Below are positions 10,825 through 28,044 of a stretch of 33,891 nucleotides of DNA, piece after piece. The DNA lies in NCBI GenBank assembly GCA_017471025.1, contig JAFUWX010000064.1, forward strand, positions 1-33,891. Direction: 5' to 3'. Origin of the DNA: Bacteroidales bacterium (GTDB lineage Bacteria; Bacteroidota; Bacteroidia; Bacteroidales; UBA932). The notes under the pieces were generated by a model, which saw nothing but the letters and a program-made list of their open reading frames with translations, was not told the DNA's origin and did not search any database. The position numbers were made by a program, and so were the translations under genes. The number at the start of each line of letters is the position of its first letter. Positions within the stretch are counted from its first letter, which is position 1.

Positions 10825-12903
10825 TTACAGGGTAAGCAGTGACGCCCTGCTGGCATAGTTCCTGACAGCCTGCAATGACAGGGCGGGAGAACCGGTGACA
10901 TGGATCAGATTATCGCTATTACCGGTCTGCACATACAGGTCGAAGGTGACCTGGGTGCCTTCAATCGTGATGGAGCCGCTCGCAATGCTGCCCGGTGTAC
11001 CGGTCCAGCCATTGTTGAAGACGGAATACAGCTGCCCGCCGAACTTAGCGGGGACGATAGCCTTGTTGCCGATGGAATTGCTGAAGGTATATGTACCGTC
11101 CGGGAGCGGCGTACCGCAATAATTGGTCCGGATATTGTCTTCGAAGACCCACTCCTCCACAGGAACCGTAACGACCATGTTGCAGGTGTACGTATTGTTC
11201 AGATAGTTGAACTGGAGGATGAATGCATTGTAGCCTTCGCCCAGGGCCTCGCCGAAATACAGGCCGCTGTACATCGGGATGGTGGCGGTGGTGATTTCCA
11301 CATCGACATCCGGGTAAGGTTGCATTCCCTTCTTGGCAGCCGGGATCACCACGGAATCATCCTCGATGGCATAATCATAGGTCCGGAGCACCTTCGTGAT
11401 GGTATTCCAGTTTTCGTCATAGGTATAGTTTCCGTCCTCATCCAGGACGTACTCCCATTCTTCCAGGGTTGCGGTGAAGGAAATCTTATAGGTGCCGTCC
11501 TCGTTCTTGGCGATGACAAGGGTAGCCTCCGTGCCCTCCTTGATGCGGGAAGGCACCTGAGGGATATCATTGGCGGAGAAGTCGGTGAAGGTTCCGGGCT
11601 GTGCCTCCTTCTTACCGTTGTAATAGGCAACGGTCTCGGATTCAGGGATGGAGGCGACATACTTGAACGTGCCGACCGGGAACTCGGTACCGTCCACCTC
11701 TCCGGCCTCGGTGTAGAGGGTGAAATTGATGTAGCTGAGCGCGGGCACGTCGGCGCTGGGTGCAGCCGTCGGCCAGATGGTCAGCTGCCACCTGTTCGCC
11801 TTGGTCGTGTAGTAGGTATCGGTCGTCGAATCGAAGGTCGGAGTATAGTAGCCGTCTTCCATCACCAGGATGGAGAAGGACTGGTCTTCCACCGCGATGG
11901 GGCCTTCATAACTGTAGGAGTGGGTGGCCTGGGTGATATCCACGAGGGCGGCGGTGATGACGACGTTGCCGTTTTCTTCCGCAACGGTCACTTCGCCGTC
12001 CACGACGTCGATGGTACGGCCGCCTTCCACGAGATAGGAATAGAAGCGGCCGATGCCGCCCTTCAGCGCGAAGGTACCGGCGGCGCGGCCGGCCTCCTGG
12101 TCAGGGACGAAGGTACCCGTAGGCACGACGGTAACGTCACCCGGCTCCTCGCCGAGATTGAGGACGATGACAATCTGGTCACCGCCTTCGGTGACCATCT
12201 CCAGGACCGTCTGGGGAGAGGTCTGGTAGGCGTCGGCGTAGAAATAGTCGCGCAGGCCGACATAGATGGCGGCAGCCTCGGTGGCCGGGGTCCAGTCCGC
12301 ACCCTGTACCACTTCGTAGGTCTGGGAAGAGGCGTCCGTGGAAAGGGTGAAGTGGCCGGTACGGGGGCCGAGCTGGCTGTTGGCCGTAACGTGGAGCTTG
12401 ATGGTGCCCGCGACGGGCTCAGCCTTGGTCTGGGTGACCGTAATCCACGGGGTATCCTCGGCCACGGTCACGGTATAGGTGACATTGCCCTCAACCTTGA
12501 TTTCGATATCCTGGGCCTTGGAGTCAATGTTATAGACGAGGGCGGAGGAGAAGGTCGATACCTCTTTCTGCTCGATATTGAAGACCGTGCTCTTGGAGCC
12601 GGCCTTGATGGTGACTTTGGCCGTACGGGCGGCAAATCCGGTGTTGGGGGCCACCGTCATGACGACGGTCAGGTTGTTGCCCGCGGAGCCGGAGGTGCGG
12701 TCAAAGGTAATGAAGTCCTGATCTGCTTCCACGGTCCAATCCGCGTTGGAAGAGAACACCAGGTTCTGGGTAGCGCCCTCGTTGGAGACGACGATGGTGG
12801 ATGAATCCACGTTCAGGGCATCCTGCTGAACCTCTTTCTGGCAGGCGACGGCCAGCACCGCTGCGGCCATGGCCAAAAGATAACTGATTCGTTTCATACA
12901 CAT
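10825..12903 (-). CDS. BACON-domain surface lipoprotein with repeated beta modules
   Basis: The 692-residue protein has a lipoprotein signal ending in AVAC (Cys21; start at Met1 or, equally likely, Met3 at 12897). Residues about 29-115 form a BACON domain, shown by VVSNEGATQNLVFSSNADWT followed by VEADQDFITFDRTSGSAG and ending NIEQKE. A second BACON-like domain lies at about 124-205 (DTPWITVTQTKAEP, ending YEVVQGADW). BACON domains are carbohydrate- or mucin-binding or spacer domains of secreted Bacteroidota proteins. The remaining 480 residues carry about three similar beta-rich modules with a P-x-GT-Y/F turn and a later G-x-I/V-x-G strand pair. No catalytic residues are recognised. It is the last gene of the operon, just before the terminator, and probably acts as a surface ligand-binding protein for the SusCD pair. 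Confidence 0.85.
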   Translation of the reverse strand: MCMKRISYLLAMAAAVLAVACQKEVQQDALNVDSSTIVVSNEGATQNLVFSSNADWTVEADQDFITFDRTSGSAGNNLTVVMTVAPNTGFAARTAKVTIKAGSKSTVFNIEQKEVSTFSSALVYNIDSKAQDIEIKVEGNVTYTVTVAEDTPWITVTQTKAEPVAGTIKLHVTANSQLGPRTGHFTLSTDASSQTYEVVQGADWTPATEAAAIYVGLRDYFYADAYQTSPQTVLEMVTEGGDQIVIVLNLGEEPGDVTVVPTGTFVPDQEAGRAAGTFALKGGIGRFYSYLVEGGRTIDVVDGEVTVAEENGNVVITAALVDITQATHSYSYEGPIAVEDQSFSILVMEDGYYTPTFDSTTDTYYTTKANRWQLTIWPTAAPSADVPALSYINFTLYTEAGEVDGTEFPVGTFKYVASIPESETVAYYNGKKEAQPGTFTDFSANDIPQVPSRIKEGTEATLVIAKNEDGTYKISFTATLEEWEYVLDEDGNYTYDENWNTITKVLRTYDYAIEDDSVVIPAAKKGMQPYPDVDVEITTATIPMYSGLYFGEALGEGYNAFILQFNYLNNTYTCNMVVTVPVEEWVFEDNIRTNYCGTPLPDGTYTFSNSIGNKAIVPAKFGGQLYSVFNNGWTGTPGSIASGSITIEGTQVTFDLYVQTGNSDNLIHVTGSPALSLQAVRNYASRASLLTL

Positions 12904-12933: not shown

Positions 12934-14484
12934 TTATACAAAGGTCGGCGCAATGGCCGTAATCTCGCCGAATCCGTCGAACGTTCCCCCGTTCTTGTAG
13001 GTGAGCATGCCGGTCGCGAGGTTGAACGGCCGCACATAGATCTTCCCTTCTCCCGTCGTATCGTTATGGGTCACGATCAGGATCTGCGTCCGGTTCGTGG
13101 GCAGGGTATAGGGATAGACGTTGAAGGTGCCGTACTGCATGCTCCCCCACCAGGCCTGGACATAATGCTTGACCATGGTGATTCTCTCCTGGTCCGAATC
13201 CGGCGCCCAGCTGAGTTTCCGACTGATAGCCTCGGAAGCGCCGAAGACCACGGCATACACGCTGCTGGAGGTGGTATAATACATGATGTCAACGTTGTCG
13301 CAGAAGGCCACGGACACGATGTCATCGGCCTCGGGCAGCGTCACCTGACGCAGATAGTACACCGAATCGTTGATGTACAGATAGGCGATGTAATAGTTGC
13401 CGTCGGCGGTTTTGATGATGAAGGCGCCGCCGTTGGACCGGGCCGGGCCGCTGCCGAGGCACTGCGAGCCGGACAGGTCGATGCCGAATCCCGTCTGCAC
13501 TTCGGTCATGGTGGAGTTGCTGATGAACGCGCCATGGCAGGCGTAGAATTTTCCGACCGTTTCATTGAAGGCCATGACCCAGCCCTGGTCCATCCGACCG
13601 AAGGCCAGGTTGTCCGGGCGGATGAAATCCGACGGGCTGACACCGATGGGGACCTTGCTGTAGGAGTTGTCGATATGGGTGGTATTGCCATACAGATTGC
13701 CGTTCACGATGGCCAGCGAAGCATATCCGGAGCAGTTCCACATGCCGGTGGTCCGGAAGGAAGACTCCCGGACATTGCTGAAGAGCATCTCATCGGCATC
13801 CCCCTTCTTGAAGGTCTGGGGGTCCACCCGGAACAGGTGCTTCTCCGTGCCGATCAGGATGTGCGGGTCGTTATAGACTTGGCCATTCGTGGCATATTTC
13901 GCGTTCATCGACAGGATCTTGTCGGGCACCGTTTCGTCATTGACCAGGGAATACACCCCCCGGGTATATCGGACGGCAGGGTCCTTAAAGCCATAGGTAA
14001 TGGATTCGCTGGCCACCAGGTCGATGTCATACGTCCCGTCCCGCTCATAGGCGACGAGGAGCCCTTCACCCAGTGCGGACTGGACATAGAGCCGGCACAT
14101 CTTGACGACAAACAGGCCGGTCTGGGTATCCGTCACGGTACAGGTAACGGCATACGGCATAGACGACGGCGAGCTGTTGACCTTCAGCGACATGGTCTTC
14201 TCTTCGCTCAGGACAATCCGCTCGTCAGAGTCGCCTGCGTGGAAATCCATTTCCCACAGATAGGTAAAGTCCGATTCCGTCCGGTTGTCCTGGAGGGCGG
14301 TGACGGAAAGGGTGATTTCCTGACCGAACAGGATATGCATGGCCGTATCCAGGCCGCTGACGCGCAGCTCGGGGATCTCGAACGTCGCCTGCGTGCTCTG
14401 GTCTTTGTAGCATCCTCCCGTGGAAAGCGCCGCCACCAGCAGCGCACAGAAGGCCAAACTATGATATAAATACTTCATTTTCAT
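12934..14484 (-). CDS. PKD-like family surface lipoprotein
   Basis: The 516-residue protein has a lipoprotein signal ending STGGC (Cys25). A PKD-like beta-sandwich follows at about 34-135, including FGQEITLSVTALQDNRTESD, FTYLWEMDF and a later YAVTCTVTDTQTGLFVVKMC. The rest (about 140-516) is beta-rich with regular aromatic residues, perhaps propeller-like, and has no recognised catalytic motif. Proteins of this type typically sit in operons with SusC, SusD and DUF4843 genes, exactly as here. It starts 4 bases after the DUF4843 stop, and the BACON gene follows after 30 bases. The likely role is surface binding of the operon's substrate. The family call is from pattern and context; function beyond that is unknown. 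Confidence 0.8.
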   Translation of the reverse strand: MKMKYLYHSLAFCALLVAALSTGGCYKDQSTQATFEIPELRVSGLDTAMHILFGQEITLSVTALQDNRTESDFTYLWEMDFHAGDSDERIVLSEEKTMSLKVNSSPSSMPYAVTCTVTDTQTGLFVVKMCRLYVQSALGEGLLVAYERDGTYDIDLVASESITYGFKDPAVRYTRGVYSLVNDETVPDKILSMNAKYATNGQVYNDPHILIGTEKHLFRVDPQTFKKGDADEMLFSNVRESSFRTTGMWNCSGYASLAIVNGNLYGNTTHIDNSYSKVPIGVSPSDFIRPDNLAFGRMDQGWVMAFNETVGKFYACHGAFISNSTMTEVQTGFGIDLSGSQCLGSGPARSNGGAFIIKTADGNYYIAYLYINDSVYYLRQVTLPEADDIVSVAFCDNVDIMYYTTSSSVYAVVFGASEAISRKLSWAPDSDQERITMVKHYVQAWWGSMQYGTFNVYPYTLPTNRTQILIVTHNDTTGEGKIYVRPFNLATGMLTYKNGGTFDGFGEITAIAPTFV

Positions 14485-14488
14485 GGAA

Positions 14489-15295
14489 TCAAAGAATTGC
14501 TAACGTCTCCAAGATGGTCGGCGGCGTCCCTTCCGGGCGCGTCCCCTCCCCCACAGGCACATTCCAGGTTTTGTACGTCTCGTAATCACTGCTGTGGCGG
14601 TACGGCGCGTCCGGGTTGGCCGCATCATGCTCCGCCACCACTTCGCGCAGCTGGCGGTTGGCAGACCACCACCATGTCGGGGATTTGAAAATCAGGGTGG
14701 GGTCCTCCTTGAGATAACCCGTACTGAGCGTATATTTCTCCACATCCAGACCGAATTCCTCCACCAGCAGCTTATGCAGATTCTGGCTGTACGCCGGGCA
14801 GAGATACAGGAACCAATAGCGCCAGGTATAGACGGCGGGGCGGGAATACAGTTCCGTCCAGGCCACGATGCACTTCTGGTAATTGGGCATGCCGGCCCGG
14901 AAAAACGCGTTGGGCTTGATCAGCATCGTACAGGCCCGGTCGGGGACCTCTTCGGTGAGCTGATTGACGCGGATGACGATATTCCCACGCAGCGCCCCGG
15001 CCGGAATCACGGCGGACACGATGGTAAAATCACGGCCCAGCACGGCCGTGGAATCCTTCACCTCCAGGGTGATTTCCCTGTCATAATCGGCAGGGATCCC
15101 CACGACCTCCACCGGAATGCTGAACTCGGCGGTCGGCTCGGTAATCCCCTTCATGGAGAAGGACGAGGAGCGGGCCTTGAAGTTGACGGCGCTGTCCTCC
15201 ATGGCGAATGTGCGGATATTGTCCTTCTGGCAGGCTCCGGCCAGGAGCAGTACAAGGGGAAGGACCAGTATTTGTATATTTTTGCGCATATCCAT
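14489..15295 (-). CDS. DUF4843 lipoprotein
   Basis: The 268-residue protein has a lipoprotein signal ending LAGAC (Cys22). It then has a beta-sandwich with FSIPVEVVGIPADYDREITL and EVKDSTAVLGRDFTIVSAVI, giving the Calx-beta-like rhythm of DUF4843. A C-terminal half follows with RYWFLYLCPAYSQNLHKLL and conserved tryptophans. DUF4843 proteins have no assigned biochemical role but are regular members of SusCD operons. It starts 3 bases after the SusD stop and ends 4 bases before the PKD-like gene, so it is tightly cotranscribed. An alternative start is Met3 at 15289. Confidence 0.85.
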   Translation of the reverse strand: MDMRKNIQILVLPLVLLLAGACQKDNIRTFAMEDSAVNFKARSSSFSMKGITEPTAEFSIPVEVVGIPADYDREITLEVKDSTAVLGRDFTIVSAVIPAGALRGNIVIRVNQLTEEVPDRACTMLIKPNAFFRAGMPNYQKCIVAWTELYSRPAVYTWRYWFLYLCPAYSQNLHKLLVEEFGLDVEKYTLSTGYLKEDPTLIFKSPTWWWSANRQLREVVAEHDAANPDAPYRHSSDYETYKTWNVPVGEGTRPEGTPPTILETLAIL

Positions 15296-15298: not shown

Positions 15299-16861
15299 CT
15301 AAATGTCTTGAACTCTGCCGAAAGCCGTCTCCTGGGTAGGATACGGGAATTGATAGGCATCCTGGGAAAGGGGAATCGTCATGGGGAAATTAATAAACAT
15401 TTTCTTGCTGAGATACGCATCGCTGGCCACTCTTTTCATGATGAACAGACACTGTCCTTCGCCAATGAATTCCCGGAAATACTCCATGATGAGTTCCTGG
15501 GAGGCATACTCCTCATCGGCCAGCACATAAGGCAGGGACGTAGCATAGTCATCCGTAATGCCCCGGGCGTGCCGGACGACATCCAGGTAGGCGGCCGCCT
15601 GCGAAAGGGTACCGTTGAACAATTCGTTTTCGGCCAGGATGTAGTACATCTCGGATATCCTCAGCATCGGCATGATATTGCGATATGGGAGGGCCTGCGT
15701 GGAGGAGCCGTACAGCTTGTTCACATTGTAACCCGTTCCGTTGTAGGAGAGGCACATGGCCGTACCCCGGATATCCTCTATGCCGCCCTGGTATTCCGAG
15801 AACGGGCTCCTGAGGAAAAAGCTGTTCTCTATCACCTCGGCCGGGATGCTATAGCCCGAGCCCTGTGTACCACCACCGGGGAAGAAATAGGGCTGCACCG
15901 CAGCATACAGATCCGTCACTTCCAGGGAAAACAGATGCTCGCAGGAGAAAGTCCAGTCCCTTTGGTCGTTGTCATAGATTTTCAGCTGCTCGTCCGGGTC
16001 GATCCAGTGGACGACGCCCTTGTCGAAAACGGCATCGATGACTTCTTGTGCCGACTTGGCCGCATTCTTATAGTCCGAAAGCCATTGATAGACCCGGGCC
16101 TGCAAGGCCTTGACGGCATAATAATTCAAATGCTTGCGCCGGCCTTCCCAATAGCCGCCGACGTTGGGGCCCGTATTGAACGCATCGGAGTACCCGACCA
16201 CGATCGGGTCCACAGCGGACAGGAGGTCGAGCGCATCGTTGATATCCTGCTGGATCAGTTTGAAGGTCTCGGCATAAGACAGCTGGGGGCAGGGCTCCTT
16301 GTCATAATCCTTCTGGTAAGGGACCGCCAGGATTTCGGAAGTGGCCAGGTCCGCCCTGTACTTGTCATACATGCGGGACAGGTCGAAATGGACATACGCG
16401 CGGATGGCGAGCAGTTCGCCTTTGATCAGGCTGTATTCCACTTCGCCCAGGACGTCTTTTCCGTTTTCTTCCAGGGCGCGCAGGATCTTGTTCGCATTCG
16501 CGATGACGAAATAGCCTGAACGCCACATGCTTTCGAGCACGGGGACAGCCTCGTTCGAGGTATAAAGACGGCTTTGGAAGGCGCGGTAGGACGCATTCGG
16601 CATCGCCGTATAAGGATACACGACGGCATCGTTCACCCACCAGGTATAATCGGAGCCGTAGCACTCCGGCTGGGCCATGGCGATGTACACGCCGGACAGG
16701 GCCTCTTCATAGCCGAGGCGGGTCTGAAAGAGTTTCTGGTCGGAAATCTGGGAGGTGGACACGGCCGTGAGCCACTCGCTGCACGATGTCGCACAGGCGA
16801 GCAGGGCCGCGGCGGTCCCGGTCAGGAGTATGGTTTTCCGTATGATATTCATCGCTCGCAT
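15299..16861 (-). CDS. SusD/RagB-family nutrient-binding lipoprotein (second pair)
   Basis: This is the surface lipoprotein partner of the adjacent SusC. The 520-residue product has a signal peptide with two possible acylated cysteines, Cys23 (LLAC) and Cys27 (ATSC). The sequence after Cys27 (SEWLTAVSTSQISDQKLFQT) matches the usual SusD mature start, so Cys27 is preferred. Family traits include YEEALSGVYIAMAQPECYGS and RAYVHFDLSRMYDKYRADLA with a helical TPR-like scaffold. Met4 (16852) is an alternative start. It begins 4 bases after SusC and ends 3 bases before DUF4843. The surrounding operon has no glycoside hydrolase, so the ligand may not be a glycan. Confidence 0.93.
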   Translation of the reverse strand: MRAMNIIRKTILLTGTAAALLACATSCSEWLTAVSTSQISDQKLFQTRLGYEEALSGVYIAMAQPECYGSDYTWWVNDAVVYPYTAMPNASYRAFQSRLYTSNEAVPVLESMWRSGYFVIANANKILRALEENGKDVLGEVEYSLIKGELLAIRAYVHFDLSRMYDKYRADLATSEILAVPYQKDYDKEPCPQLSYAETFKLIQQDINDALDLLSAVDPIVVGYSDAFNTGPNVGGYWEGRRKHLNYYAVKALQARVYQWLSDYKNAAKSAQEVIDAVFDKGVVHWIDPDEQLKIYDNDQRDWTFSCEHLFSLEVTDLYAAVQPYFFPGGGTQGSGYSIPAEVIENSFFLRSPFSEYQGGIEDIRGTAMCLSYNGTGYNVNKLYGSSTQALPYRNIMPMLRISEMYYILAENELFNGTLSQAAAYLDVVRHARGITDDYATSLPYVLADEEYASQELIMEYFREFIGEGQCLFIMKRVASDAYLSKKMFINFPMTIPLSQDAYQFPYPTQETAFGRVQDI

Positions 16862-16865: not shown

Positions 16866-19800
16866 TCAGAAAGTAGCCGTCAGGGAAAGGGAGAAGTTCC
16901 TGGCATAGGGGTAGGAAGTACCTCTTTCCACCTCGATGCTGGAGAATTTATACAGGTCGTTGGCATAGAACGTCAGCCGCATCCGGCTCATCTTCAGGCG
17001 GCTTACCCAGGCGTAAGGGAATTCGTAATACACCGACAGGGAAGACAGATTGAGCACATTGTTCTTCTGGACGAAACGGGTTGTGGCCTGGGTATAGGAG
17101 CCGGCGGTAATGTTCCGCTTGTAGGGAGCGACGTCGCCGGGTTTGGCCCAACGGCCCTCGAAGACCCGCCTATCGACATTGTCGCTCAGGTTCGTACCTT
17201 CCACCTTCTGGAGCAGGGTGCTGTTATAGATATACCCGCCGCCGTAGAAGGTGGCGACGAAGTTCATGCCGATCCCGTGGATTTCGCCGCTGAAGCCGAA
17301 GTTGCCGTTCAGCAGCGGGTCGGACGAGCCGCAGTTCACAAGGTCCTTCGCCGACCATTCACTGGTCATGTCCCCGTTCCTGTTCAGGAAGATTTCTTTC
17401 CCGTCCAGGGAATTGATTCCCAGGGAGCGGACGGCCCAGATGGAGTGCAGCGGCACCCCGTTGTAGTACTGCACGACCGGGGCTTCCGAATGGGTGGACT
17501 CGGCCACCGCCTGCTGCATGGCGTTGTAATTGGCCAGGGCTTCGGAAATCTCGATGACCCGGTTGTCATTCACGGCGATTTTCCCGAAGATGCTGAAGAA
17601 AGAGGCGCCTTTCTGGTACAGGGTGTAGCTCAGCGAGGCCTCGACGCCCCGGTTGCGGACCTTGCCCATGTTCTCATTGACGACGGTGAAACCGGAGGAA
17701 GGGACGATGGAACGCGGGAACACCAGGTTACGCGTATCCGCGATATAGAAATCCAGGACGGCATTGAGCCGGCGCGTCCGAAAATCCACACCGATATTAT
17801 AGTCCATCTTTTCCTCCCAGCCGAGGTTGACGTTTTCCATGTTGTCGAGCCGGGCGCCGGAGAAGCCGTTGTAATAATTCGAACTGTAATAGGAATACAC
17901 CGGCAGGGACACATTGGACATGAAGTTCTGGTTGCCGGATGAGCCCAGGGAGGCCCTGAGCTTGAACTGCCGGATCCAGGAGGCGTTCTTCAGGAAGGCC
18001 TCGTTGTGCAGGTTCCAGGCCAGGCCGGCGCTCCAGAACAAGCCCCAGTGGCGCTTCGTTCCGAACACGGACGAGGCGCTGGCCTTCAGCGTGGCATCGA
18101 CCATGTACCGGTTGTCATAGGTATATCCGCCGGTGAGCAGGCCGCCCAGGTTCCTGTTCCGGCCTTCATATCCGGTAGGGGTGGTGTCGGCGGTATATTG
18201 CCTGGCGAAGGAGATATTCTTCATGTTGCTGTTCGAGAACCCGCTCGTATAATGCTGGACCTCGCTGTATTCGGTCGAGGAGAGGTTCCACTGGACGGCG
18301 GAAAAGACGCTGTGCTTTTCCTGGAAGGTCTTGTTGAAATCGGCCGAGATATCGGCGGAGAAGGTCAGGCGGCTGCCGTTGGACACATCGTAGGAGCCCC
18401 GCGAGAGCCTGTCGTCTTCCGTGGTATTGGAGGTCGTGTAGAAATCGGTATGGTCCGCCGGTTTGAAATCGTCGGAAGCGGTCCGCTGCGTATCGACGCC
18501 CACCCTTCCGACAATCTTCAATTCCTTCGTCAGATAGAGTTCGGTATAGAAGTTTTCCGTGAAGTTCAGGTACTGCTGCTTGTAGAATGTCCCGATTTGC
18601 GCATTGTACATCGGATTCACGATATCATCGTCATCGTACGGGGAGAAGGCGGCGATTCCCGAGCCATAGGTCTTGGGGGACACCATTTTCACGACATTCC
18701 CTTCCGCATCATAGGGCGAGAAATAAGGGTTCATGGCCGCATAGCGGTCGAAGGAGCCCCAGGGGGAATCCTCGCTCTTCATGGCGGAGACGCTCATGAT
18801 GTTGCGGAAAATCCATTTGCTGTGCCGGTAGGACAGGTTGACGTCGCCGGAAAGGACATCGCGGTATGAGCCCTTCATGACACCCTGGACATCATTGTAG
18901 GAAATCGTGGCGAGGGCCTTGATTTCTTTGGTGCCCATTTCCACGGAGAGCGAATGCTTGTGGCCGATGCCCAGGCGGACCGGCTTGGAGAGCCAGTAGG
19001 TCGATTCGCCTTCCAGCGCTTTTTTGAGGCGCTCAGAATAGAGGTTGCCGGCCGTCTCCAAGGCATAGGATGGGGTATTCATGTCGCCCACGGTCCTATC
19101 GACACCCGGGCTGTAAAACCCTTCCCGGAACTCCACCGCCAGTTTCTCCAGGGCGTTGCACAGGTTGTAACTGGTGAGGTCCGGCGCTTCGATCGTCAGA
19201 TTGCCGGTATAGGTAATCAGCGTTTTATTGGAATTGAGGGCCTTGGTTTCGATGACGATGACGCCGTTCGCACCCTTCGAGCCATAGATGGCCTTGGCGG
19301 AAGCATCCTTCAGGATGGTGATGCTCTGGACCCGGTTCATGTCCATGTCGGTAATCTTCTCCAGCGTGGTCTCAAAGCCGTCCAGGATGAACAGCGGGGT
19401 GTTGGCCGGATTGATGAAATCGCTCTTCAGCCCGGTCGTCATTTCGGAGGCGAGGGTGGAGGCGCCGCGCAGCTGCATCGAGGCCAGCGCATTCGGATTG
19501 GAACCGTCCGTGAGGTTCTCCAGCACCAGCAGCGAAGGGTCCAGGTACTTGAGGGCCTGGACGACATTGCTGTTCGACACGCGCTTGATGTCCTCCGAGG
19601 ACATGGACTGCACCGCGCCGGTAAAGGAGTCTTTCTTCCGGGTAAAGATACCGGTGACGACGACTTCGTCGAGGGTGTTGGACTTGTCTTCTTCCAGGAA
19701 AATCCGCAGGGCGCGGCCTTCCTTGTAGTCGGCCACGTTGATGCGCTGGGAGACAAATCCCATGAATTCGACGATGAGGACGGCGTCGGAGGGGACACCG

Positions 19801-20018
19801 GCGACGGTAAAATGACCTTCCGGATCGGCCGCCGTGCCGAATTTCTTGTCGGCCGTATAAATCGCTGCCCCGACGAGCGGCTCACCGGTCCTGTCGAACA
19901 CGGAGCCCTGGACTGTCTTGGTCGCTTTTTGCTGGGCAAACAGCCCCGGCGAGCCCAGGCCCGTGAGCAGGAACAACATTAACCATCTTAACAAAAATAC
20001 ACCCTTTCGTTTCATCAA
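16866..20018 (-). CDS. SusC/RagA-family TonB-linked transporter (second pair)
   Basis: The 1050-residue TonB-dependent importer has a signal peptide to about residue 28 (GLFA). A carboxypeptidase-regulatory-like domain follows at about 35-112 (VQGSVFDRTGEPLVGAAIYT). Next are the TonB-box-like LDEVVVTGIF at 116-125 and a plug to about 260. The SusC/RagA signature includes LFILDGFETT and ILKDASAKAIYGSKGANGVI (235-254). The C-terminus is a barrel ending LSLTATF. It heads the five-gene operon SusC-SusD-DUF4843-PKD-BACON, with a good promoter about 95-125 bases upstream and a terminator after the BACON gene. The start could be Met1 (20018) or Met2 (20015). It is only distantly similar to the left SusC, so the two pairs are not a recent duplication. 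Confidence 0.96.
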   Translation of the reverse strand: MMKRKGVFLLRWLMLFLLTGLGSPGLFAQQKATKTVQGSVFDRTGEPLVGAAIYTADKKFGTAADPEGHFTVAGVPSDAVLIVEFMGFVSQRINVADYKEGRALRIFLEEDKSNTLDEVVVTGIFTRKKDSFTGAVQSMSSEDIKRVSNSNVVQALKYLDPSLLVLENLTDGSNPNALASMQLRGASTLASEMTTGLKSDFINPANTPLFILDGFETTLEKITDMDMNRVQSITILKDASAKAIYGSKGANGVIVIETKALNSNKTLITYTGNLTIEAPDLTSYNLCNALEKLAVEFREGFYSPGVDRTVGDMNTPSYALETAGNLYSERLKKALEGESTYWLSKPVRLGIGHKHSLSVEMGTKEIKALATISYNDVQGVMKGSYRDVLSGDVNLSYRHSKWIFRNIMSVSAMKSEDSPWGSFDRYAAMNPYFSPYDAEGNVVKMVSPKTYGSGIAAFSPYDDDDIVNPMYNAQIGTFYKQQYLNFTENFYTELYLTKELKIVGRVGVDTQRTASDDFKPADHTDFYTTSNTTEDDRLSRGSYDVSNGSRLTFSADISADFNKTFQEKHSVFSAVQWNLSSTEYSEVQHYTSGFSNSNMKNISFARQYTADTTPTGYEGRNRNLGGLLTGGYTYDNRYMVDATLKASASSVFGTKRHWGLFWSAGLAWNLHNEAFLKNASWIRQFKLRASLGSSGNQNFMSNVSLPVYSYYSSNYYNGFSGARLDNMENVNLGWEEKMDYNIGVDFRTRRLNAVLDFYIADTRNLVFPRSIVPSSGFTVVNENMGKVRNRGVEASLSYTLYQKGASFFSIFGKIAVNDNRVIEISEALANYNAMQQAVAESTHSEAPVVQYYNGVPLHSIWAVRSLGINSLDGKEIFLNRNGDMTSEWSAKDLVNCGSSDPLLNGNFGFSGEIHGIGMNFVATFYGGGYIYNSTLLQKVEGTNLSDNVDRRVFEGRWAKPGDVAPYKRNITAGSYTQATTRFVQKNNVLNLSSLSVYYEFPYAWVSRLKMSRMRLTFYANDLYKFSSIEVERGTSYPYARNFSLSLTATF

Positions 20019-20145: not shown

Positions 20146-22626
20146 TTATTTCAATCTTAAAGCAGATTCAGACATATTCAACAGATAGTCCAGAATCCCC
20201 TTTTTCACGTCGTCGCGCTCGCGCGATGCGGCGGCCTTGAGAATCTTGTGCAAGGACTCCATCGCCTTGTAGCAGTCCGTGTCCAGGTCGCGGAGGCTTT
20301 CCGCCGGGATGCCCGTCAACACCGGGGCCAGGCCCTCATCCCTCCCCAGGTCCTCCGTCAGGGCGAAGGAGCGGTGGAAGGCCTCGTTGTAGCCCGACTG
20401 GAGCATGGCGGAATTTCCCATCAGGCCCCAGGCCATCAGCAGGGTGACGGGGAATTCATCTTTGCGGCTCACGCGGCCCTGCCGGATATCCTCCGTCAGC
20501 ATCTGGACCAGGTCTTCCAGGTACTCGGAGGCCGGATACCCGCTCCGGGCTTTGTCCGCGGCGAAGGCCACCATCGGAATCCGGGTGTAGAAGCCGGACT
20601 GATTGGTATAATTGGTGGAGAACAGGCCGTCGAAGGAGCGCACCGCGCCGGAAAAATGGAAGAGGTCGGTCGCGCCGGGAGCCAGGGAGAAGTCGGTGAA
20701 GGTATCGTTCACCTTGCGGAGGATGTGCTTCTGGAAATCCTTCGGGACGGCCGTCATGCCGGCGTCGTCATTATAGACGCCCCCCACGTGGTAGAGCAGC
20801 GTCCGGGCCGCCGAGAACATCTGCAGCGCCACCCGCTCGGGGAAGACGACGCGGAATTCGGTCATCTCGATATCTTCCTCCCCGATCCAGGAATAGGCCT
20901 GCTCCATCACGGCTTTCAGATGGCGCATCCTTTCGTCGAAACAGGCCTCCGGATCACTGCCCAGGTCGCCCGGGACAGCCCGGGGGTCCAGGATGTTCCG
21001 GCCGCCACCGAAGGGCACGTACAGGTACTCTTTCCCGGCGTGGGCATCGAGCATGCTGCGAAGTTCCGCCTGCACGTCGGCCCCTTCGGGAAGGGCGCTG
21101 TAGAGCCATTTCACGGCCAGTTTGTCATAGGGCCCGATGCGGTCCACGATGGTCACGAGGCCCTTTTCCCTATCCCCTTCGCGGGCGAAGATATTGAACA
21201 GCACGTCGTCGGTGACGGAGCCCGTGATGCCGTGCAGCTTCGTGAAGGAAGGGCTGCGGAGCTGGGCGGGGCTATAGGCCAGGGAACCGGCATAGTTGGG
21301 TTCGAGGCCCAGCACGCCGCCGAAGGCCTGCATGACGCGGGCGCGGAGCATGTCGCAGAGGGCGGACTCCGGAAGGTCGTAGGTCCGGAACCGGGCATCG
21401 ACATCGGCGATGTTGTAGAAGGCCTCATAACGGGAGGCGTCGATGAATCCGGCCGGGACCGTCATGGTGAAGGAGAGCAGCTCTCCGGTGGAATTGTCGC
21501 CGAACAAGGCGGTGCGGATGGTCTCCCGGCGCGGGTCGTCGTCCGCCATCACCTTGCTGACCAGCGGGTCCTCCGCCCGGAAGCCCCCGTAGGAAGGATA
21601 GCGGCGCACATCGACGGCCCGCTTGATGCCCAGCTGCTCGAAGGCGGGATTCCAGGCCTCGATCCCCTTCCGGATGGCCTGGTACCAAGCCTCGGGGAAA
21701 AGGGTGTCCACATAGACGGTGAGCCGCTCGTCCGGGGTGATGTTCCAGCGGCGCGCCGTACGGCCCGAACGGATGCCCCGGGCGGCGGAAAATTCCTGAT
21801 ACGGCACGCTCCGCACCCCGATCCGGCGGTCCACCGGACGGATGGCCAGGTCGCTTGCGGGAAGTACGGTCAGCGTGGTAATAAACTCACCGTCAATGCG
21901 TTCCTTTTCGCCTTCAAAGACATAGGCCCGGCCTCCGCCGGCCGGGATGTACGGGGTGACATGGAAGGACACGGCCTGCCGGACGCCGACGCTGCCCGGA
22001 TACGCCACCGGCGCGATGACCTCGGAGAAATCGGGGACGGGCGTACCGTCGTCATACGCGGTGAAGGTGTCATCTACGTTGACCCCCTTCATGCTGAACG
22101 CATCTTTGTTGGAGGGAGAGAACAGGCGCGTGGCATCCACGACCACGGCGCTGCTGTCCGCATTGCGGTATTTCAGCGGGAAGGCGTAGCGCACGGGCAG
22201 CAGGCCGGCTTTGCGCAGCGCGCTGTGCAGGGAGGTATCCCGGACGGAGACCGGTCCGCGCGGCTCGCGGAGCACCAGGAGGGAATCGGTGCGGGACAGC
22301 ACGAAGACCTTCTGGGGCGAGACGCTCCGGCCCACAGGCACCCACTCGGAGCTGGTCTTGCTCGTTACGGTGCTGAGGACCACCTTCTTTCCCATCAGGG
22401 AATCCGGAATCTCCAGCCAAACCTTCTGGCCGTCACGATAGACCTTGAAGCCTTCGCCGGCCGACTTGAGCCCCTTTTTGCCGGAGAATTTCTGATACGG
22501 GGTCTTGGCAGGGGCCTTGCTGACCTCTGTCCCTGCTTTTTTCCGGGGTTTCCGGGCCCCGGAAGCAGGCGTGACTGCCGCCGCGAGAGCCAGCGCAGTC
22601 AGGAGGATATATACTGTCTTTCTCAT
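20146..22626 (-). CDS. Catalytically dead paralogue of a DUF5117/DUF4953 zinc metalloprotease
   Basis: This 826-residue protein has a cleavable signal peptide (about 1-23) and a basic linker. The layout is that of the gene upstream: a DUF5118-like segment (about 44-95, with VWLEIPDSLMGK), a DUF5117-like beta region, then a DUF4953-like protease region. It lacks the active site. Where the paralogue has HEVGHTLGLMHN it reads QAFGGVLGLEPN (433-444), losing all three zinc-binding histidines and the catalytic glutamate. The paralogue's Met-turn SIMDY is SVTDD here (470-474). The frame is open throughout and the flanking alignment holds (LFNIFAREGDREKG against RFNYVAQPGDKERG), so this is a preserved pseudoenzyme rather than a decaying gene. 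Its ATG overlaps the protease stop as ATGA, implying translational coupling. A role as inhibitor, chaperone or substrate-binding partner is inference. Confidence 0.88.
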   Translation of the reverse strand: MRKTVYILLTALALAAAVTPASGARKPRKKAGTEVSKAPAKTPYQKFSGKKGLKSAGEGFKVYRDGQKVWLEIPDSLMGKKVVLSTVTSKTSSEWVPVGRSVSPQKVFVLSRTDSLLVLREPRGPVSVRDTSLHSALRKAGLLPVRYAFPLKYRNADSSAVVVDATRLFSPSNKDAFSMKGVNVDDTFTAYDDGTPVPDFSEVIAPVAYPGSVGVRQAVSFHVTPYIPAGGGRAYVFEGEKERIDGEFITTLTVLPASDLAIRPVDRRIGVRSVPYQEFSAARGIRSGRTARRWNITPDERLTVYVDTLFPEAWYQAIRKGIEAWNPAFEQLGIKRAVDVRRYPSYGGFRAEDPLVSKVMADDDPRRETIRTALFGDNSTGELLSFTMTVPAGFIDASRYEAFYNIADVDARFRTYDLPESALCDMLRARVMQAFGGVLGLEPNYAGSLAYSPAQLRSPSFTKLHGITGSVTDDVLFNIFAREGDREKGLVTIVDRIGPYDKLAVKWLYSALPEGADVQAELRSMLDAHAGKEYLYVPFGGGRNILDPRAVPGDLGSDPEACFDERMRHLKAVMEQAYSWIGEEDIEMTEFRVVFPERVALQMFSAARTLLYHVGGVYNDDAGMTAVPKDFQKHILRKVNDTFTDFSLAPGATDLFHFSGAVRSFDGLFSTNYTNQSGFYTRIPMVAFAADKARSGYPASEYLEDLVQMLTEDIRQGRVSRKDEFPVTLLMAWGLMGNSAMLQSGYNEAFHRSFALTEDLGRDEGLAPVLTGIPAESLRDLDTDCYKAMESLHKILKAAASRERDDVKKGILDYLLNMSESALRLK

Positions 22627-25202
22627 TTCAGGGCGGTTGCGTATTCAATGTACTGGATCAGCAGGGAATAATGGGCCTTCGTCGTGGGGTCGGCACCGGC
22701 GAGACGCTGCTTGAGGAGCTTGTGCGCCTTCTCGACCTGCGCATAAATCAGACCCGGCGTGACGACGCCGAAAGATTGCAGGGTATTGCGGGGCTCCCAT
22801 TCGAAGCCGCTGACCTCACCCAGGCACATGCCGGAGCAGGATTCCGGCTGGAACGCCGGCTCAGCGAGGGACGTCACGCCTTCCGGGAGCCGGAAAGAGC
22901 CCGTCTGGAGCATGGACAGCACATATTGCTTCTGGAGCGCCCGCTCATCGGCGGTGAGTTTTCCCTTGGGCGCCCAGACAAAGTCGAAGATCTTGTCGTA
23001 GAGCTCTTCCGGGGAAAGTTCCTCCGTCATGACGCCGTCCACGAAGCCCGCCACGAAGGGCAGGAAGAACAGCTGCTGCGCCATGCGGGTCTTGAGCGAG
23101 TAGCGCAGGTCACCCAGCAGGGGCAGGGTGCCTGTCGCGGACGGTTCGGCGAGCCAGTCCACGTCTTTGTACATCTCCAGCAGCATATCCAGGGCCTTGA
23201 GCTGCTTCTCGCGCGGGACATTGGCGTAACGCTGCTGTCCGTCCCCGGGGACGACTTCCCACTTATACAGACCGCCCACCGTGGTCGCCACATGGCCGAA
23301 ATAGCGCATGTACTGGCTGGCGATGCCGGAATACAGGGCCATCCGGTATTCGTAGTCGGGGTCGTCGGCATCGCTGATCCATTCCATGAAATGGGCGGTG
23401 ATATACTTCAGGTTGGATATGCCGTAGGCCGTGGCGCCGAACACGTCGTCGCTCAGGTCCTCGGTCTGGCAGCTGGGGTCGGCGCCGGCGGCGCTCATCT
23501 GCTGCTTGCCGTACCGGTAGAACGGCGCCACCTTCAGCGAATCCGTAATCCAGTCCGTGGTCATCTTGACCTCCTCCTCGAAAGAGGGTGCGTCGAAAAT
23601 GGGGGTATAGCCCCAGCGGATGGCCCAATAATCATACTTGCCGAAGCGGGGCGGGGTCAGCTTGACGCCCCTTTCCTTGTCGCCCGGCTGGGCGACATAG
23701 TTGAAACGGGCATAGTCCATGATCGACGTGGTGGTGCCGTATTCCCGGGTCTTTTCCGGGTCGCGGAGCCAGGCGAGCGGGATGCAGGTGGAGGCGCTCA
23801 TGTTGTGCATGAGACCCAGCGTATGGCCCACCTCGTGCTTGATGACATACATCAGGGCATCGCCCAGCAGCTCCTGCGGGATATCGACCCGGCGGACATC
23901 CGGATCGGCCTGGGCCGTCTGGACGAACATCCAGGTACTCAGCAGTTTGATGACGTCATGATAGACATACACCGAGGCGTTGATGATTTCGCCGCTGCGG
24001 GGATCCACCCAGGAAGGGCCCATGGCGTTCTGGATGGCGATGGGGGCATAACGGATGCAGCTGTAGCGGATGTTGTCCGGGTCGAAGGAAGGGTCGTCCT
24101 CCGGGAAAGGCAGAGCCTGGACCGCATCCTGGAAACCGATGTTCTCAAACACTTCGTTCCACTGCAGGACGGCATCATAGATATAGGGCTTCCACCACGC
24201 GGGGAAGTCGTTGTCGATGTAGAAGGTGATGGGCTTGACAGGGCGGACCTTCTCTCCCCGGCGGTAGGCCAGGGTGTCGGAAGGTTCCAGGCGCCAGCGC
24301 TCGGCGAAATAGACGGTCTTCGTCGAGGAATTGAAGCCGCCGAACTGCTGCCGGGGCAGGAAGAAGAAGCCGATACGCGGGTCGGCCATCCGGGGATGAT
24401 AGACCTGCTCGGGAAGCAGGAGGATGGAGGTGGTCATCTCCGCCGTGAGGGCACGGTCCTTGACCACGGTCTTGCCCGAGGCGTCCGTGATGGAATAGGT
24501 ATAGCTGCGGCTCGTCGTCACGGATACATTGTCCTCAAAGGCCTTGGCATCGACGACGTAGGACAGGTCTTTCTTGTAGTTTTCCCGGGCCCCGCCCCCA
24601 CGCATGGCGGAAACGCCGCCGAAGGGGCTGAATTCCTTCTTGTCATCCAGGATCCAGCCGGTGATGTCTATGCTGTATCGCTTGTCGGGCGACTCGGCCT
24701 TGACGGGGAACTTGGCCACGATGGCGCCGGCATGGGACTTGGCCAGCGCGCGGACGATGGACGAATCCTGCGAGCGGAAAGCGAAGTCCACCTTCTTCAT
24801 ATAGATGGTGCTGTCGGCCTTTTCAAAGGTAATGGGCATCAGGTCCTTCTTGCCGCCGGCCACGCCGAAGGCGTTGTTGCTGATGGAGCGGATGGTGGTC
24901 CCCATGATGAAGGTACGGCCGAGCAGGCTGTCCGGTATGTCGAAATAGACCTTCCCCTTCTTGACATGCACCGAAAGCATGCCCTGGGCATACTTGTCCT
25001 GCTTTTCAAACAGTTTCTCCCATTTGGAAAGGGTCTTGGTGGTGTCCTTTTTCTCGGTCTTCGGCTTTTTCCGCTTGAAAATCCGCGAAGACGCATCGGC
25101 CCGGGGCGCCGGCAGGACCAGCAAAAGTCCGATGGCCGTGCCCAAAAATAATTTGAAATAACCAGTCATAACGCTACTGTTTCTCGCAAAATTTATCATC
25201 AT
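22623..25202 (-). CDS. Secreted zinc-dependent metalloprotease (DUF5117/DUF4953 family)
   Basis: The 859-residue protein is predicted to be exported. A hydrophobic signal lies near residues 13-36, and Met12 (25169, MTGYFKLFLGTAIG) is a plausible start in place of Met1. A basic linker (41-57) leads to a DUF5118-like segment with VYFDIPDSLLGRTFIMGTT, a DUF5117-like beta region and a metzincin-like catalytic domain. Its zinc motif is HEVGHTLGLMHN at 456-467 (His456, Glu457, His460, His466), and SIMDY at 493-497 is a Met-turn. The C-terminal part is helical. It starts 10 bases after the barrel-protein gene and overlaps the dead paralogue by four bases, so three exported proteins are made together. 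The likely role is cleavage of protein or peptide substrates in the periplasm or at the surface; the actual substrate is unknown. Confidence 0.92.
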   Translation of the reverse strand: MMINFARNSSVMTGYFKLFLGTAIGLLLVLPAPRADASSRIFKRKKPKTEKKDTTKTLSKWEKLFEKQDKYAQGMLSVHVKKGKVYFDIPDSLLGRTFIMGTTIRSISNNAFGVAGGKKDLMPITFEKADSTIYMKKVDFAFRSQDSSIVRALAKSHAGAIVAKFPVKAESPDKRYSIDITGWILDDKKEFSPFGGVSAMRGGGARENYKKDLSYVVDAKAFEDNVSVTTSRSYTYSITDASGKTVVKDRALTAEMTTSILLLPEQVYHPRMADPRIGFFFLPRQQFGGFNSSTKTVYFAERWRLEPSDTLAYRRGEKVRPVKPITFYIDNDFPAWWKPYIYDAVLQWNEVFENIGFQDAVQALPFPEDDPSFDPDNIRYSCIRYAPIAIQNAMGPSWVDPRSGEIINASVYVYHDVIKLLSTWMFVQTAQADPDVRRVDIPQELLGDALMYVIKHEVGHTLGLMHNMSASTCIPLAWLRDPEKTREYGTTTSIMDYARFNYVAQPGDKERGVKLTPPRFGKYDYWAIRWGYTPIFDAPSFEEEVKMTTDWITDSLKVAPFYRYGKQQMSAAGADPSCQTEDLSDDVFGATAYGISNLKYITAHFMEWISDADDPDYEYRMALYSGIASQYMRYFGHVATTVGGLYKWEVVPGDGQQRYANVPREKQLKALDMLLEMYKDVDWLAEPSATGTLPLLGDLRYSLKTRMAQQLFFLPFVAGFVDGVMTEELSPEELYDKIFDFVWAPKGKLTADERALQKQYVLSMLQTGSFRLPEGVTSLAEPAFQPESCSGMCLGEVSGFEWEPRNTLQSFGVVTPGLIYAQVEKAHKLLKQRLAGADPTTKAHYSLLIQYIEYATALK

Positions 25203-25212: not shown

Positions 25213-28044
25213 TTATTCCATGTATCTTATGCTCCTGAACGAATCATCCCACTCGGCGAAGCCCTTGAATACGGAACGTTTCGAGGTCTTGTTCAGGCGG
25301 AAAGCCACATTCAGCATGTAATACCGCCCGTAGGCCGGCGTCCAGGACTGTACCCGCCGGTCCGCGGCCGTCGTCTCGGAATAGGTGGTGCTGCGGTTGA
25401 GCAAATCGTTGGCAGATACCGATATCACAAGCCTTCCCTTCATCAGGTTAGCCCCGGCGCAGGCGCTCAGGGCGAACACCGTCCGGTCCTGGAGCCCGCC
25501 GGCGAGGTAATGATAGACGCTGCCGAAGCTGTTTGCATCGACGAAGAAATATTTCAGGAAGGATGCGTGGGCGTTGAAGGAGAACGAGTGCGCCAGCCTA
25601 TCGACAATGGTCTGCCCGAGGGTATTGCTCCCGCGGAGGTAGGCCAGTCCGTATTCCGCCCTGAAACTCAGCGGTTTGGTGCGATAGTGCCACTCCAGCC
25701 CGGCGGAAGGGGACGAATCGAAATTGCGCATCAGCGTGCCCGACACATACTGGGGCGAGGTGGAGAAGGTATATCCCGCGTTGACGTGCAGGTTGGATTT
25801 GATCGGCTGGAGCCGCAGGACATAACTCGCCTGGACCCCGGCGAGGACACTTGCCGGCCCATTCGCATAGGTCGTGAAAGTCGTGCCCGGAAGAAGGTCA
25901 TATCCGCCCCAGCCATCCAGATGGGTGGCCCCGCCGTAGTACATGCTGTTGGATACGACAGGTGAAGTGGTCACGGTCGAGGTAACTTCCACCCGCAGGT
26001 TGGCGGGCATGACCTTGCTGTCCAGGGGCAGATAGCCGGAAAGGCGGAGCTGATGCTGATACGACGCGCGCAGGGCCGGATTGCCGCCCTGGAGGAACAT
26101 GGGGTTACGGTCGTCAATCCTGTCTCTGAGCTGCTCCAAGGAAGGGAGGTTCGTTTGCAGGTCATAACTGATCCAACTCCTTTTGCTTCGCATGGCAAAA
26201 TAAGCCTGCGGCACGAAGAAATACTTGGAAAAGCCTGTCGCGACGGGAATGCGCTCCGCATCGGACACCTGGCTCAGGCCGGCGAACAATCCGGCCGTAA
26301 GGCCTTTTCCGTCGGCCCTGGATACATGGAAAGACGTGCCTATGGCCGCTTTCCTTTCATGATACGTATAATCATACGTATTCACGGCATCGGGAAGCGG
26401 GTTGTCAGGATCGATGACATCGTAGGACAAGGATTTGGTTTTGGACGATCGGGTGCTGAGATTGATTCCCGGGCTGAGCGAAATCGTAAGGGAGTCGGAA
26501 TTGACCAGGACTCTTTCCACGCCCGCGTTCGCCAGGACGGACCAGTTGCCCTTGTCCGAGGCCATATCCAGTTTCCGCCTGTGGGTGGATGTCTTGAGGG
26601 TATCCTGGACGATTTCGCCGGATTTACCGCCGCCGATGGAAAGCTCCATCATGGCGTAGGGATTCCACCCGCTTTCCGCCGTAGGGTTTCTCCAGTAGAA
26701 ACGCCCGACGTAGCTGAGGTCCCGGACCTGGGACGAAGTCGTCTGGGAGGTCCGGGCCATCGTAGCGTCCTGCGTCCACGACCGGCTTCCGGAATAGGCA
26801 CTCGCCCCTGTCTTGGTAAATCCCAGCGTGCTGTTGACGCTCAGGCTTTTCACTTTCGCGTTTTGCAGAGACAGATTCATCGTGAGCGAATGACGTCCGT
26901 CGGTGGAGGAGGACGATGCGGTATCGGCATATTCCCGGGCCGGGCTGTCCCCGGTGGGGAAATAGCTTGTACGGGAGGTTCTGAAGGTGCGGGAAGCATC
27001 CCGCATGAAGGTGTAATCGGCATGGAACGAGCTGCCCAGGAGCCTGTCTCCCCAATATTTCGTCAGGGCCACTTCCGTCACCAGACGGTCGTTGTAGGTA
27101 TTCAGGGGGCCGTAGGGAGTGCGTACGCTGCGGACTTCATTGTCGGAGCGGCCGATGTTGTTGGCATTGAATTTCACGGACCACAACAGGCTTTCGGAGA
27201 AAAACCGTGTACTCAGACCGCCCTGATACCTGGGCTGAATCCGGCCCGCCGAGTTCCGCTGGGCGTCGGCACCGCCCGAGGCCAGGACATGGCCGTCGAA
27301 CGCGCTGAATACCGCTTCCTTGGTCGTGACATCCAGCACCCTTTCCTTCTGGCCGTTCTTGTTCCCTTTCAGCCTATCTTCCACGGACAGTTCCTCATAG
27401 GACTTGATGTGGGTCACATCCTCGGCCACGATCGCTCCGAGCGGAGCCATGGCGTTGTCACCATAGATCAGGCGGCCGTTCACATAGGTGCGCTTCACCT
27501 CCTGGCCGTTTACATAGATTTTTCCGCTTTTGATTTCCACGCCGGGCATCTGGCGGAGAATCTCCACCGCGTTCTCCCCTTCCGACAAAGGAATGGCTGC
27601 GGCATTGTAGATGATCGTATCTTTGCGGTGGGTCATCGGAGGCACGACGGCGCGGATATGCGCCTCCTTGATTTGTTCCGGCCTGCGGAACAGTTCCACG
27701 TACAGGAAGCCCTCGTCATCCTGGAGGTCGAGGATGATGTTCTGGTCGTAAAAGCCTTTTTTCACGAATTTGAGACGGGTCTCTCCGGGCCTGAGCCCGC
27801 GCAGGTTGAAGACGCCGAGGATATCGGTTCTGAACGAGGTGCTGTCGCCGCCTTGATACGCCATGATCTGGACCTGCGGTACAGGATACTCGTACAGGGA
27901 ACTGTCCCGCCCCATCATACTTTCGAAGACACGGCCCCGCATGCCGAGCTTTTTGTCCTGTCCCTGCAGCGGGAGACAGAAAAGCGCCAGCATGAGCGCA
28001 GCCGCCAAGACACCGGCTGAACTCCGAAGGGCGTGTTTTGTCAT
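25213..28044 (-). CDS. Outer-membrane beta-barrel protein, TonB-receptor-like (paralogue 1)
   Basis: The 943-residue protein has a signal peptide to about residue 28 and a carboxypeptidase-regulatory-like domain at about 34-118 (TSFRTDILGVFNLRGLRPGE). A plug-like domain follows (about 138-245) with AVEILRQMPGVEIKSGKIYV and KRTYVNGRLIYGDNAMAPLG. A long barrel resembles the OMP_b-brl_3 family. The last barrel strand is YYMLNVAFRLNK and a tail of about 26 residues follows it. No clear TonB box is seen, so energised transport is uncertain. It shares long conserved blocks with the 29654-32371 protein. It is the first gene of an operon with two metalloprotease-family genes, suggesting it imports, anchors or presents peptides processed by them. 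Confidence 0.85.
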   Translation of the reverse strand: MTKHALRSSAGVLAAALMLALFCLPLQGQDKKLGMRGRVFESMMGRDSSLYEYPVPQVQIMAYQGGDSTSFRTDILGVFNLRGLRPGETRLKFVKKGFYDQNIILDLQDDEGFLYVELFRRPEQIKEAHIRAVVPPMTHRKDTIIYNAAAIPLSEGENAVEILRQMPGVEIKSGKIYVNGQEVKRTYVNGRLIYGDNAMAPLGAIVAEDVTHIKSYEELSVEDRLKGNKNGQKERVLDVTTKEAVFSAFDGHVLASGGADAQRNSAGRIQPRYQGGLSTRFFSESLLWSVKFNANNIGRSDNEVRSVRTPYGPLNTYNDRLVTEVALTKYWGDRLLGSSFHADYTFMRDASRTFRTSRTSYFPTGDSPAREYADTASSSSTDGRHSLTMNLSLQNAKVKSLSVNSTLGFTKTGASAYSGSRSWTQDATMARTSQTTSSQVRDLSYVGRFYWRNPTAESGWNPYAMMELSIGGGKSGEIVQDTLKTSTHRRKLDMASDKGNWSVLANAGVERVLVNSDSLTISLSPGINLSTRSSKTKSLSYDVIDPDNPLPDAVNTYDYTYHERKAAIGTSFHVSRADGKGLTAGLFAGLSQVSDAERIPVATGFSKYFFVPQAYFAMRSKRSWISYDLQTNLPSLEQLRDRIDDRNPMFLQGGNPALRASYQHQLRLSGYLPLDSKVMPANLRVEVTSTVTTSPVVSNSMYYGGATHLDGWGGYDLLPGTTFTTYANGPASVLAGVQASYVLRLQPIKSNLHVNAGYTFSTSPQYVSGTLMRNFDSSPSAGLEWHYRTKPLSFRAEYGLAYLRGSNTLGQTIVDRLAHSFSFNAHASFLKYFFVDANSFGSVYHYLAGGLQDRTVFALSACAGANLMKGRLVISVSANDLLNRSTTYSETTAADRRVQSWTPAYGRYYMLNVAFRLNKTSKRSVFKGFAEWDDSFRSIRYME

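Follow-up and report, generated by a model that had tools for sequence, protein, structure and literature searches.

Within a 33,891-nucleotide stretch of DNA from a Bacteroidales bacterium (contig JAFUWX010000064.1; the whole stretch is hereafter called the window), a metalloprotease gene with an intact active site is directly followed by a homologue in which the zinc ligands, the catalytic glutamate and the Met-turn methionine have all been replaced. We refer to the intact protein as A and to its dead twin as D. D is probably not a broken gene but a functional partner of A. Our favoured reading, which is rather likely, is that D, a conserved and exported pseudoprotease, assembles with A into a hetero-oligomer and serves a SusC/SusD uptake operon. 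In such a hetero-oligomer, A would supply the sole zinc site and D a second, non-catalytic lobe required for the complex to assemble, remain stable or handle its substrate. Both proteins would be exported as soluble non-lipoproteins, most likely to the periplasm, and the pair would probably trim polypeptide imported through SusCD.

The intact protease and its degenerate twin

The two genes and their motifs are arranged in the window as follows.

22623..25202, minus strand: active-type protease A (859 aa; DUF5118-DUF5117-DUF4953; HExxHxxGxxH and Met-turn intact)
23805..23837, minus strand: zinc-binding motif HEVGHTLGLMH of A (residues 456-466)
23712..23726, minus strand: Met-turn SIMDY of A (residues 493-497)
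22623..22626, minus strand: 4-bp ATGA overlap between the stop of the A gene and the start of the D gene
20146..22626, minus strand: pseudoprotease D (826 aa; signal-peptide-like N-terminus, DUF5118, DUF5117, and DUF4953 with destroyed active site)
21295..21330, minus strand: degenerate zinc-site helix QAFGGVLGLEPN of D (residues 433-444), where A has HEVGHTLGLMHN
21205..21219, minus strand: degenerate Met-turn SVTDD of D (residues 470-474), where A has SIMDY

The two proteins share 25% identity over 621 positions (E 2e-41). At the H, E, H and H of the zinc site of A and the M of its Met-turn, D reads Q, A, G, P and T; in A numbering, the replacements are H456Q, E457A, H460G, H466P, M495T and Y497D. 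All elements of a zinc metalloprotease of this type (HExxHxxGxxH, catalytic Glu, Met-turn) are replaced in D, and HExxH was absent anywhere in its 826 residues. These features predict that A is proteolytically active and D catalytically inactive. The alignment bears out the initial annotation, which had placed QAFGGVLGLEPN at 21330-21295 opposite HEVGHTLGLMHN of the neighbour and had described the loss of three zinc ligands, the catalytic Glu and the Met-turn Met. It had also contrasted SVTDD with SIMDY, correctly, except that this motif (21219-21205) runs just past the end of the region it had delimited. Its remaining descriptions hold as well: the D frame is open over its full length of 826 aa, the downstream gD-E/R-G block is retained, as GDKERG in A and as GDREKG in D, and the 4-bp ATGA overlap between A and D is present in the window. 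On the opposite (plus) strand, long open frames at 20248-22671 (807 aa) and 22671-25151 (826 aa) lie over the D and A genes; these are likely shadow frames of G+C-rich codons and not genes.

Despite its destroyed site, D belongs to DUF4953 (PF16313, Met-zincin), DUF5117 and DUF5118, its three domains scoring 142.1, 54.3 and 31.7 bits against cut-offs of 24.2, 27 and 27. All three domains were also matched by five of six other D proteins scanned, and the sixth (L239) matched DUF4953 alone. NCBIfam offered no name for A or D. In the genome of the window, about 81% complete, no copy of the family other than these two was found. A separate assembly, RUG12468, carries the same pair (L033; A 82% and D 75% identical to those of the window) with the same replacements and an open frame, making a sequencing or assembly error at the D motif very unlikely.

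Both proteins begin in a manner suggestive of export. A hydrophobic N-terminal stretch was found in 47/47 A proteins and in 36 of the 37 D proteins long enough to test, and it is from these N-termini that export of D is predicted. The A and D proteins of the window have no lipobox. Across the family, a crude lipobox pattern occurred in 1/47 A and 6/40 D, by eye inside the hydrophobic stretch, and we rejected the possibility that A or D are lipoproteins.

Distribution of the pair

Homologues were searched for at several ranks, with overlapping samples: the genus (151 genomes), the family (149 genomes, then 199), the order (393) and the class (396). A search with the Pfam family covered 296 genomes of the phylum. 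At the ranks of order and class, two candidates were scored for each genome. Many loci, a subset of the profile matches, were fetched and aligned. Duplicates were dropped before counting (L228 = L033, L282 = L178, L192 = L160), and short loci were replaced by longer stretches, seven at first and then twenty more. Six fragments at contig edges (L293, L295, L297-L300) lack the motif and were left unclassified. For two of them, L293 and L299, the best match is D, and they stem from the same genomes as L235 and L241, loci in which the D gene is cut.

The first three rounds of classification gave 237 distinct loci, comprising 44 tandem pairs and 193 singles. Forty of the pairs were mixed, with one intact and one HExxH-less copy, and four were intact-intact (L090, L144-L146). 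A later round added nine mixed pairs and brought the dead copies to 49, each adjoining an intact copy; in all 49 mixed tandem loci, the dead copy lacks at least two of the three zinc ligands. The mixed pairs span seven families of the order (coded f1, f56, f57, f74, f82, f99 and f106), and within the genus sample, 21 of 151 genomes carried one. With 48 pairs beyond the window, the dead copy is not confined to a single genome. In total, 50 HExxH-less copies were found, 49 of them beside an intact copy; the fiftieth (L335) lies 174 bp from the start of its contig, so that its neighbour falls outside the contig.

Single copies gave a different picture. With the six motif-less fragments set aside, 186 of 187 singles were intact, a count in which one protein sequence occurs twice, on separate contigs of the same genome (L189, L248). 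The lone non-intact single, L178:891-3578 (= L282), keeps HExxH but has its third His replaced by Leu. For class members outside the order, 24 loci were retrieved from a longer list of matches, and all 24 were intact. None of 195 single loci (two duplicates and the six fragments included) matched the 35 A proteins of the main lineage, defined below, best. Two further groups of relatives were noted: L144, L145 and L146 are recent tandem duplicates from another subfamily, with both copies intact and 82-250 bp apart, and in eight genomes of the genus, L283-L289 and L291 are shorter intact proteins (574-639 aa; L286 cut at 435) encoded beside a BACON-type gene.

The two genes of a mixed pair are closely coupled. 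All 40 mixed pairs measured lie on the same strand with gaps of at most 18 bp, two values of -160 being an artefact of mechanical start-codon choice. The 4-bp overlap of the window is not a general rule, as it was seen in only 7/40 pairs. The genes of the intact-intact pair L090 overlap by one base.

Phylogeny of intact and dead copies

A tree of 86 proteins was calculated under a mixture model with the motif columns removed. Seventeen D proteins formed one clade (100/100) beside the clade of their 17 A partners (100/99), with a support of 86/66 for the joining node. For these 17 pairs, the branching inside the D clade nearly matched that inside the A clade, and A and D path lengths were correlated with r 0.955 (0/2000 permutations as high), although mirrored trees can also come from vertical co-inheritance alone. 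The D proteins evolved 1.93 times faster than A (median). A second, quick tree without a mixture model included 136 proteins, 48 of them single-copy, and excluded L140 and L143. It kept 35 D proteins (the main lineage) together and grouped 33 of their A partners with one another; the A proteins of L239/L240 stood apart. No single-copy protein fell inside the main-lineage group in this tree. Long branches are present in the trees, and the placements of L239/L240 and L089/L241 in the second are unsure; L239/L240 might represent a further origin of dead copies.

Dead copies also occur elsewhere in the family. Those of L091/L137 belong to a different subfamily, and in a second lineage (L087/L088/L237/L359/L360) the first gene of the pair encodes the dead copy, the gene order of intact and dead copies being reversed relative to the main lineage. 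A single origin of the dead copies was rejected (AU p 0.00022; log-likelihood lower by 135.5 when all D were forced together), as was a grouping of the main lineage with the second (lineage ii; AU p 0.00024), which was named after the tree had been seen. These AU tests used 36 of the 86 rows, chosen by us, with 11 dead copies. The tree requires at least three changes of the site. The counts do not give the direction of these changes, but regain of a zinc site is unlikely, and there seem to have been at least three independent losses of the active site. The initial annotation had asked, as a check, whether HExxH-less members form one clade that always sits beside an active member; in this sample, the second part stands, whereas the dead copies fall into at least three lineages.

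The order of events is informative in the second lineage. Both copies of L090 (4773-9898) carry a full zinc site, and in a 25-row tree L090 falls inside the first-copy clade of this lineage, of which the second copies form a mirror clade. An intact copy within the first-copy clade indicates that pairing preceded the loss of the site in this lineage. A separate loss of the site is possible for L237 (support 87/77).

Residues kept and lost in D

The catalytic positions are retained to different degrees. Among the first 40 dead copies, the Met-turn Met survives in 19 and the Glu in 12; of the three zinc ligands, the first His survives in 2, the second in 5 and the third in 1. Across all 49 dead copies, 39 lack all three His and 10 keep one. 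Other positions around the site are retained: in A numbering, G463, N467 and N501 are kept in 49/49 D proteins, G489 in 48/49, and D524 in all 46 that reach that position. Relatives of the window D share a new motif at the old Met-turn (SVTDD, SVTDN).

We further compared 106 columns that are conserved (≥85%) in 48 single-copy proteins. Counting a column as kept in both when it reached ≥80% in A and ≥80% in D, 36 were kept in both, 33 in A but not in D, 6 in D but not in A, and the rest lay in between. Strongly D-specific columns of the main lineage numbered only four (L, G, A and V), and none is His, Cys, Asp or Glu. D has not retained N392, G395, P396, W424 and Q428, conserved positions of A that precede the zinc helix and would lie in the cleft; some of the other positions lost in D may line it as well. 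Helix-packing and glycine positions are retained in D, while many other positions of the active relatives are gone. Parts of the D scaffold look to be under selection, and the catalytic site does not.

The initial annotation had named dN/dS on the dead member as a check, and this indicated purifying selection (0.06-0.18), which contradicts decay of D. By the NG86 method, D and A gave 0.144 and 0.114 between the window and L033, 0.062 and 0.035 between L037 and L038, and 0.081 and 0.077 between L087 and L088; six further comparisons among five related loci gave 0.096-0.175 for D and 0.083-0.119 for A. Over all comparisons with unsaturated dS, D ranged from 0.062 to 0.175 and A from 0.035 to 0.119, with D above A in every comparison that yielded a ratio; two comparisons were saturated and gave none, the ratios are rough because a number of dS values approach or exceed 1, and the comparisons are non-independent. 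The frames are open in the 48 further pairs, five of whose D genes are partial, cut by the end of the stretch or contig. With its catalytic residues lost, its fold residues and frame under selection, and its conservation across species, D has the properties of a pseudoprotease. Reciprocal complementation of A and D is at most weakly indicated, since 6 columns stand against 33 the other way.

Gene neighbourhood

The pair of the window belongs to a larger gene group, with SusC and SusD genes beside it.

16866..20018, minus strand: SusC/RagA-like TonB-dependent transporter, with relatives near the pair in other loci
15299..16861, minus strand: SusD-like lipoprotein, module gene
14489..15295, minus strand: DUF4843 lipoprotein, module gene
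12934..14484, minus strand: PKD_2 lipoprotein, module gene
10825..12903, minus strand: BACON-domain lipoprotein, directly downstream of the pseudoprotease in several related loci
25213..28044, minus strand: OMP_b-brl_3 outer-membrane protein, 10 bp upstream of the A gene

The order in the window is A-D-SusC-SusD-DUF4843-PKD_2-BACON; the usual order, where flanks suffice, is SusC-SusD-DUF4843-PKD_2-A-D, often followed by the BACON protein. The SusD, DUF4843, PKD_2 and BACON proteins of the window have lipoprotein-like starts (by eye). Among the pair loci examined, a relative of the OMP_b-brl_3 protein occurred only in L033/L228 (one genome), and this protein is probably not a core part of the module. 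A second SusC/SusD pair (213-5243, minus strand; SusC 1043 aa, SusD 628 aa) is separated from the module by genes for signal peptidase, IF-3 and thrS. The Bacteroidetes -7 element reads TAnnTTTG. It is fitted by TATATTTG at 20111-20118 (minus strand) in the AT-rich, 127-bp gap between D and SusC, and SusC may have its own promoter in the window.

Module genes accompany mixed pairs more often than singles, in fetched stretches that differ in length: SusC or SusD relatives were found at 32/40 mixed pairs versus 38/135 singles, and DUF4843 or PKD_2 at 26/40 versus 9/135. SusC and SusD were both near the pair in 24/40 mixed pairs, and the mixed pairs with module relatives include loci of all three lineages. 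The module genes were absent from the fetched stretch of six mixed pairs (L084-L086, L224, L227, L241), several of these stretches being short, and were not detected in the stretch fetched around the intact-intact pairs L144-L146. A single intact protease has the SusCD-DUF4843-PKD neighbourhood in L051, and in part in L053, L125 and L249; D is evidently not needed there.

The window SusC resembles components of known RagAB/SusCD importers, matching a solved SusC homologue (8aa4, E 1.1e-57) and RagA (6sli, E 3.5e-46). A difference from these importers is the presence of DUF4843, PKD_2 and BACON genes and of the protease pair in the group. The DUF4843 and PKD_2 proteins had no informative match in the PDB. 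By analogy with RagA and from the SusCD genes, our guess is that the substrate might be a polypeptide.

Discussion

The initial annotation had proposed a maintained, exported pseudoprotease that is a dedicated partner of the active enzyme. Its pairing with an intact copy in 49 of 50 cases, the purifying selection and the mirrored phylogeny support this proposal well; sequence does not separate the three roles offered for D, namely inhibitor, maturation chaperone and substrate receptor. We favour a hetero-oligomer because complete loss of the site was seen in one partner of tightly spaced pairs but at none of the single-copy loci, and because main-lineage A was not seen without D. In this reading, A would associate with D and may need it. 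Within such a complex, D would rather be a structural subunit, since pairing preceded the loss of catalysis in one lineage and since many positions conserved in active relatives are lost in D while helix-packing and glycine positions are kept. Less in keeping with a hetero-oligomer are the faster evolution and higher dN/dS of D, the 33 columns lost in D against 6 in A, the occurrence of the module with a single intact protease, the reversed gene order of the second lineage and the six mixed pairs without module genes.

Pairing, tight coupling and selection would look the same if D were instead a dedicated regulator of A, either an inhibitor or a chaperone that keeps A inactive during export or maturation, binding it as a pseudo-substrate or as a heterodimer before being released. 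Other metallopeptidase families offer cases in which an inactive homologue regulates an active one (PMC11266112). We consider this unlikely, as single-copy relatives manage without a partner, D retains a full-length three-domain body, and the intact sites of both L090 copies are odd for an inhibitor but expected for a two-lobed particle. A substrate receptor, acting alone or with SusD and the lipoproteins and binding polypeptide uncut in the old cleft, would suit a SusC-SusD-DUF4843-PKD-BACON neighbourhood that holds other presumed binding proteins. The loss of conserved positions from what would be the cleft (N392, G395, P396, W424 and Q428 of A) does not favour a receptor of this type; the ligand-site residues vary between D proteins, A and D lack the lipobox that marks the four lipoproteins, and D was never found without A where the neighbour is visible. 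This role is improbable.

Still less probable is a new catalytic or metal-binding activity gained elsewhere in D. The SVTDD/SVTDN motif shared by relatives of the window D might hint at one, but the four D-specific columns offer no His, Cys, Asp or Glu, and the replacements differ between lineages. That D is a decaying duplicate, a pseudogene or an assembly error can be practically dismissed: its faster evolution would fit decay, but the open frames in 48 further pairs, the low dN/dS, the same replacements in a separate assembly and the retained scaffold residues do not.

The favoured hetero-oligomer would have parallels in known systems. The fold of M16B peptidases differs from that of the metzincin-like family. 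A and D, for their part, match only DUF5118, DUF5117 and DUF4953 in Pfam and do not belong to M16, whose M16B members carry HxxEH. They differ from M16B also in the HExxHxxGxxH of A, their three domains, signal-like N-termini and SusCD neighbourhood. The likeness lies in the genetic arrangement: the alpha and beta subunits of mitochondrial processing peptidase (MPP) are a homologous pair, one with a zinc site and the other without, and bacterial M16B peptidases form such a pair from a two-gene operon (PMC11266112, in excerpt), just as the 49 loci here place a zinc-site copy next to one without. A heterodimer has been demonstrated for MPP and M16B, whereas for A and D it is a prediction. Single-copy DUF5118-DUF5117-DUF4953 proteins of Bacteroidota are of the same profile family and similar length, but have kept the zinc site (186/187) and have no paired copy. 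With the M10/M12 metzincins (EcxA, reprolysin-like), A has HExxHxxGxxH and the Met-turn in common. Profile similarity to EcxA (4l63) is weak and located around the zinc helix (E 0.0055), and Reprolysin_4 matched the active copy of L087 with 22 bits, exactly at the cut-off; no match was found beyond the zinc-site region, and the D alignment had no match in the PDB at E 0.1. Pseudopeptidase ADAMs are known as well (PMC11266112, in excerpt), but differ from D in architecture.

In the literature collection searched, no paper names DUF5117, DUF4953, DUF5118 or PF16313, and searches of the pseudoprotease literature (Bacteroid; heterodimer and metalloprotease) returned none on the DUF4953 family among the matches listed. 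DUF4843 is named in two papers. A Bacteroidota BAM paper (PMC12611786) was, in excerpt, unrelated.

Protease/pseudoprotease pairs like MPP are known, and the A/D pair adds a bacterial family that no paper of the collection searched names. It is conceivable, though somewhat short of probable, that the pairs represent an undescribed class of hetero-oligomeric metzincin-like proteases in this order of Bacteroidota, in which tandem duplication beside SusCD genes would have produced a two-lobed enzyme before one lobe lost its site repeatedly (three or four times), as a recurrent design. The family provides natural replicates, with at least three apparently independent inactivations and the intact-intact L090 beside inactivated sisters, and these make the reason for keeping a dead lobe directly testable. 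SusCD loci are best known as glycan systems, and the pair suggests a proteolytic step in them. If this is true, the pairing of protease and pseudoprotease would be a recurrent design principle of a SusCD-linked uptake system.
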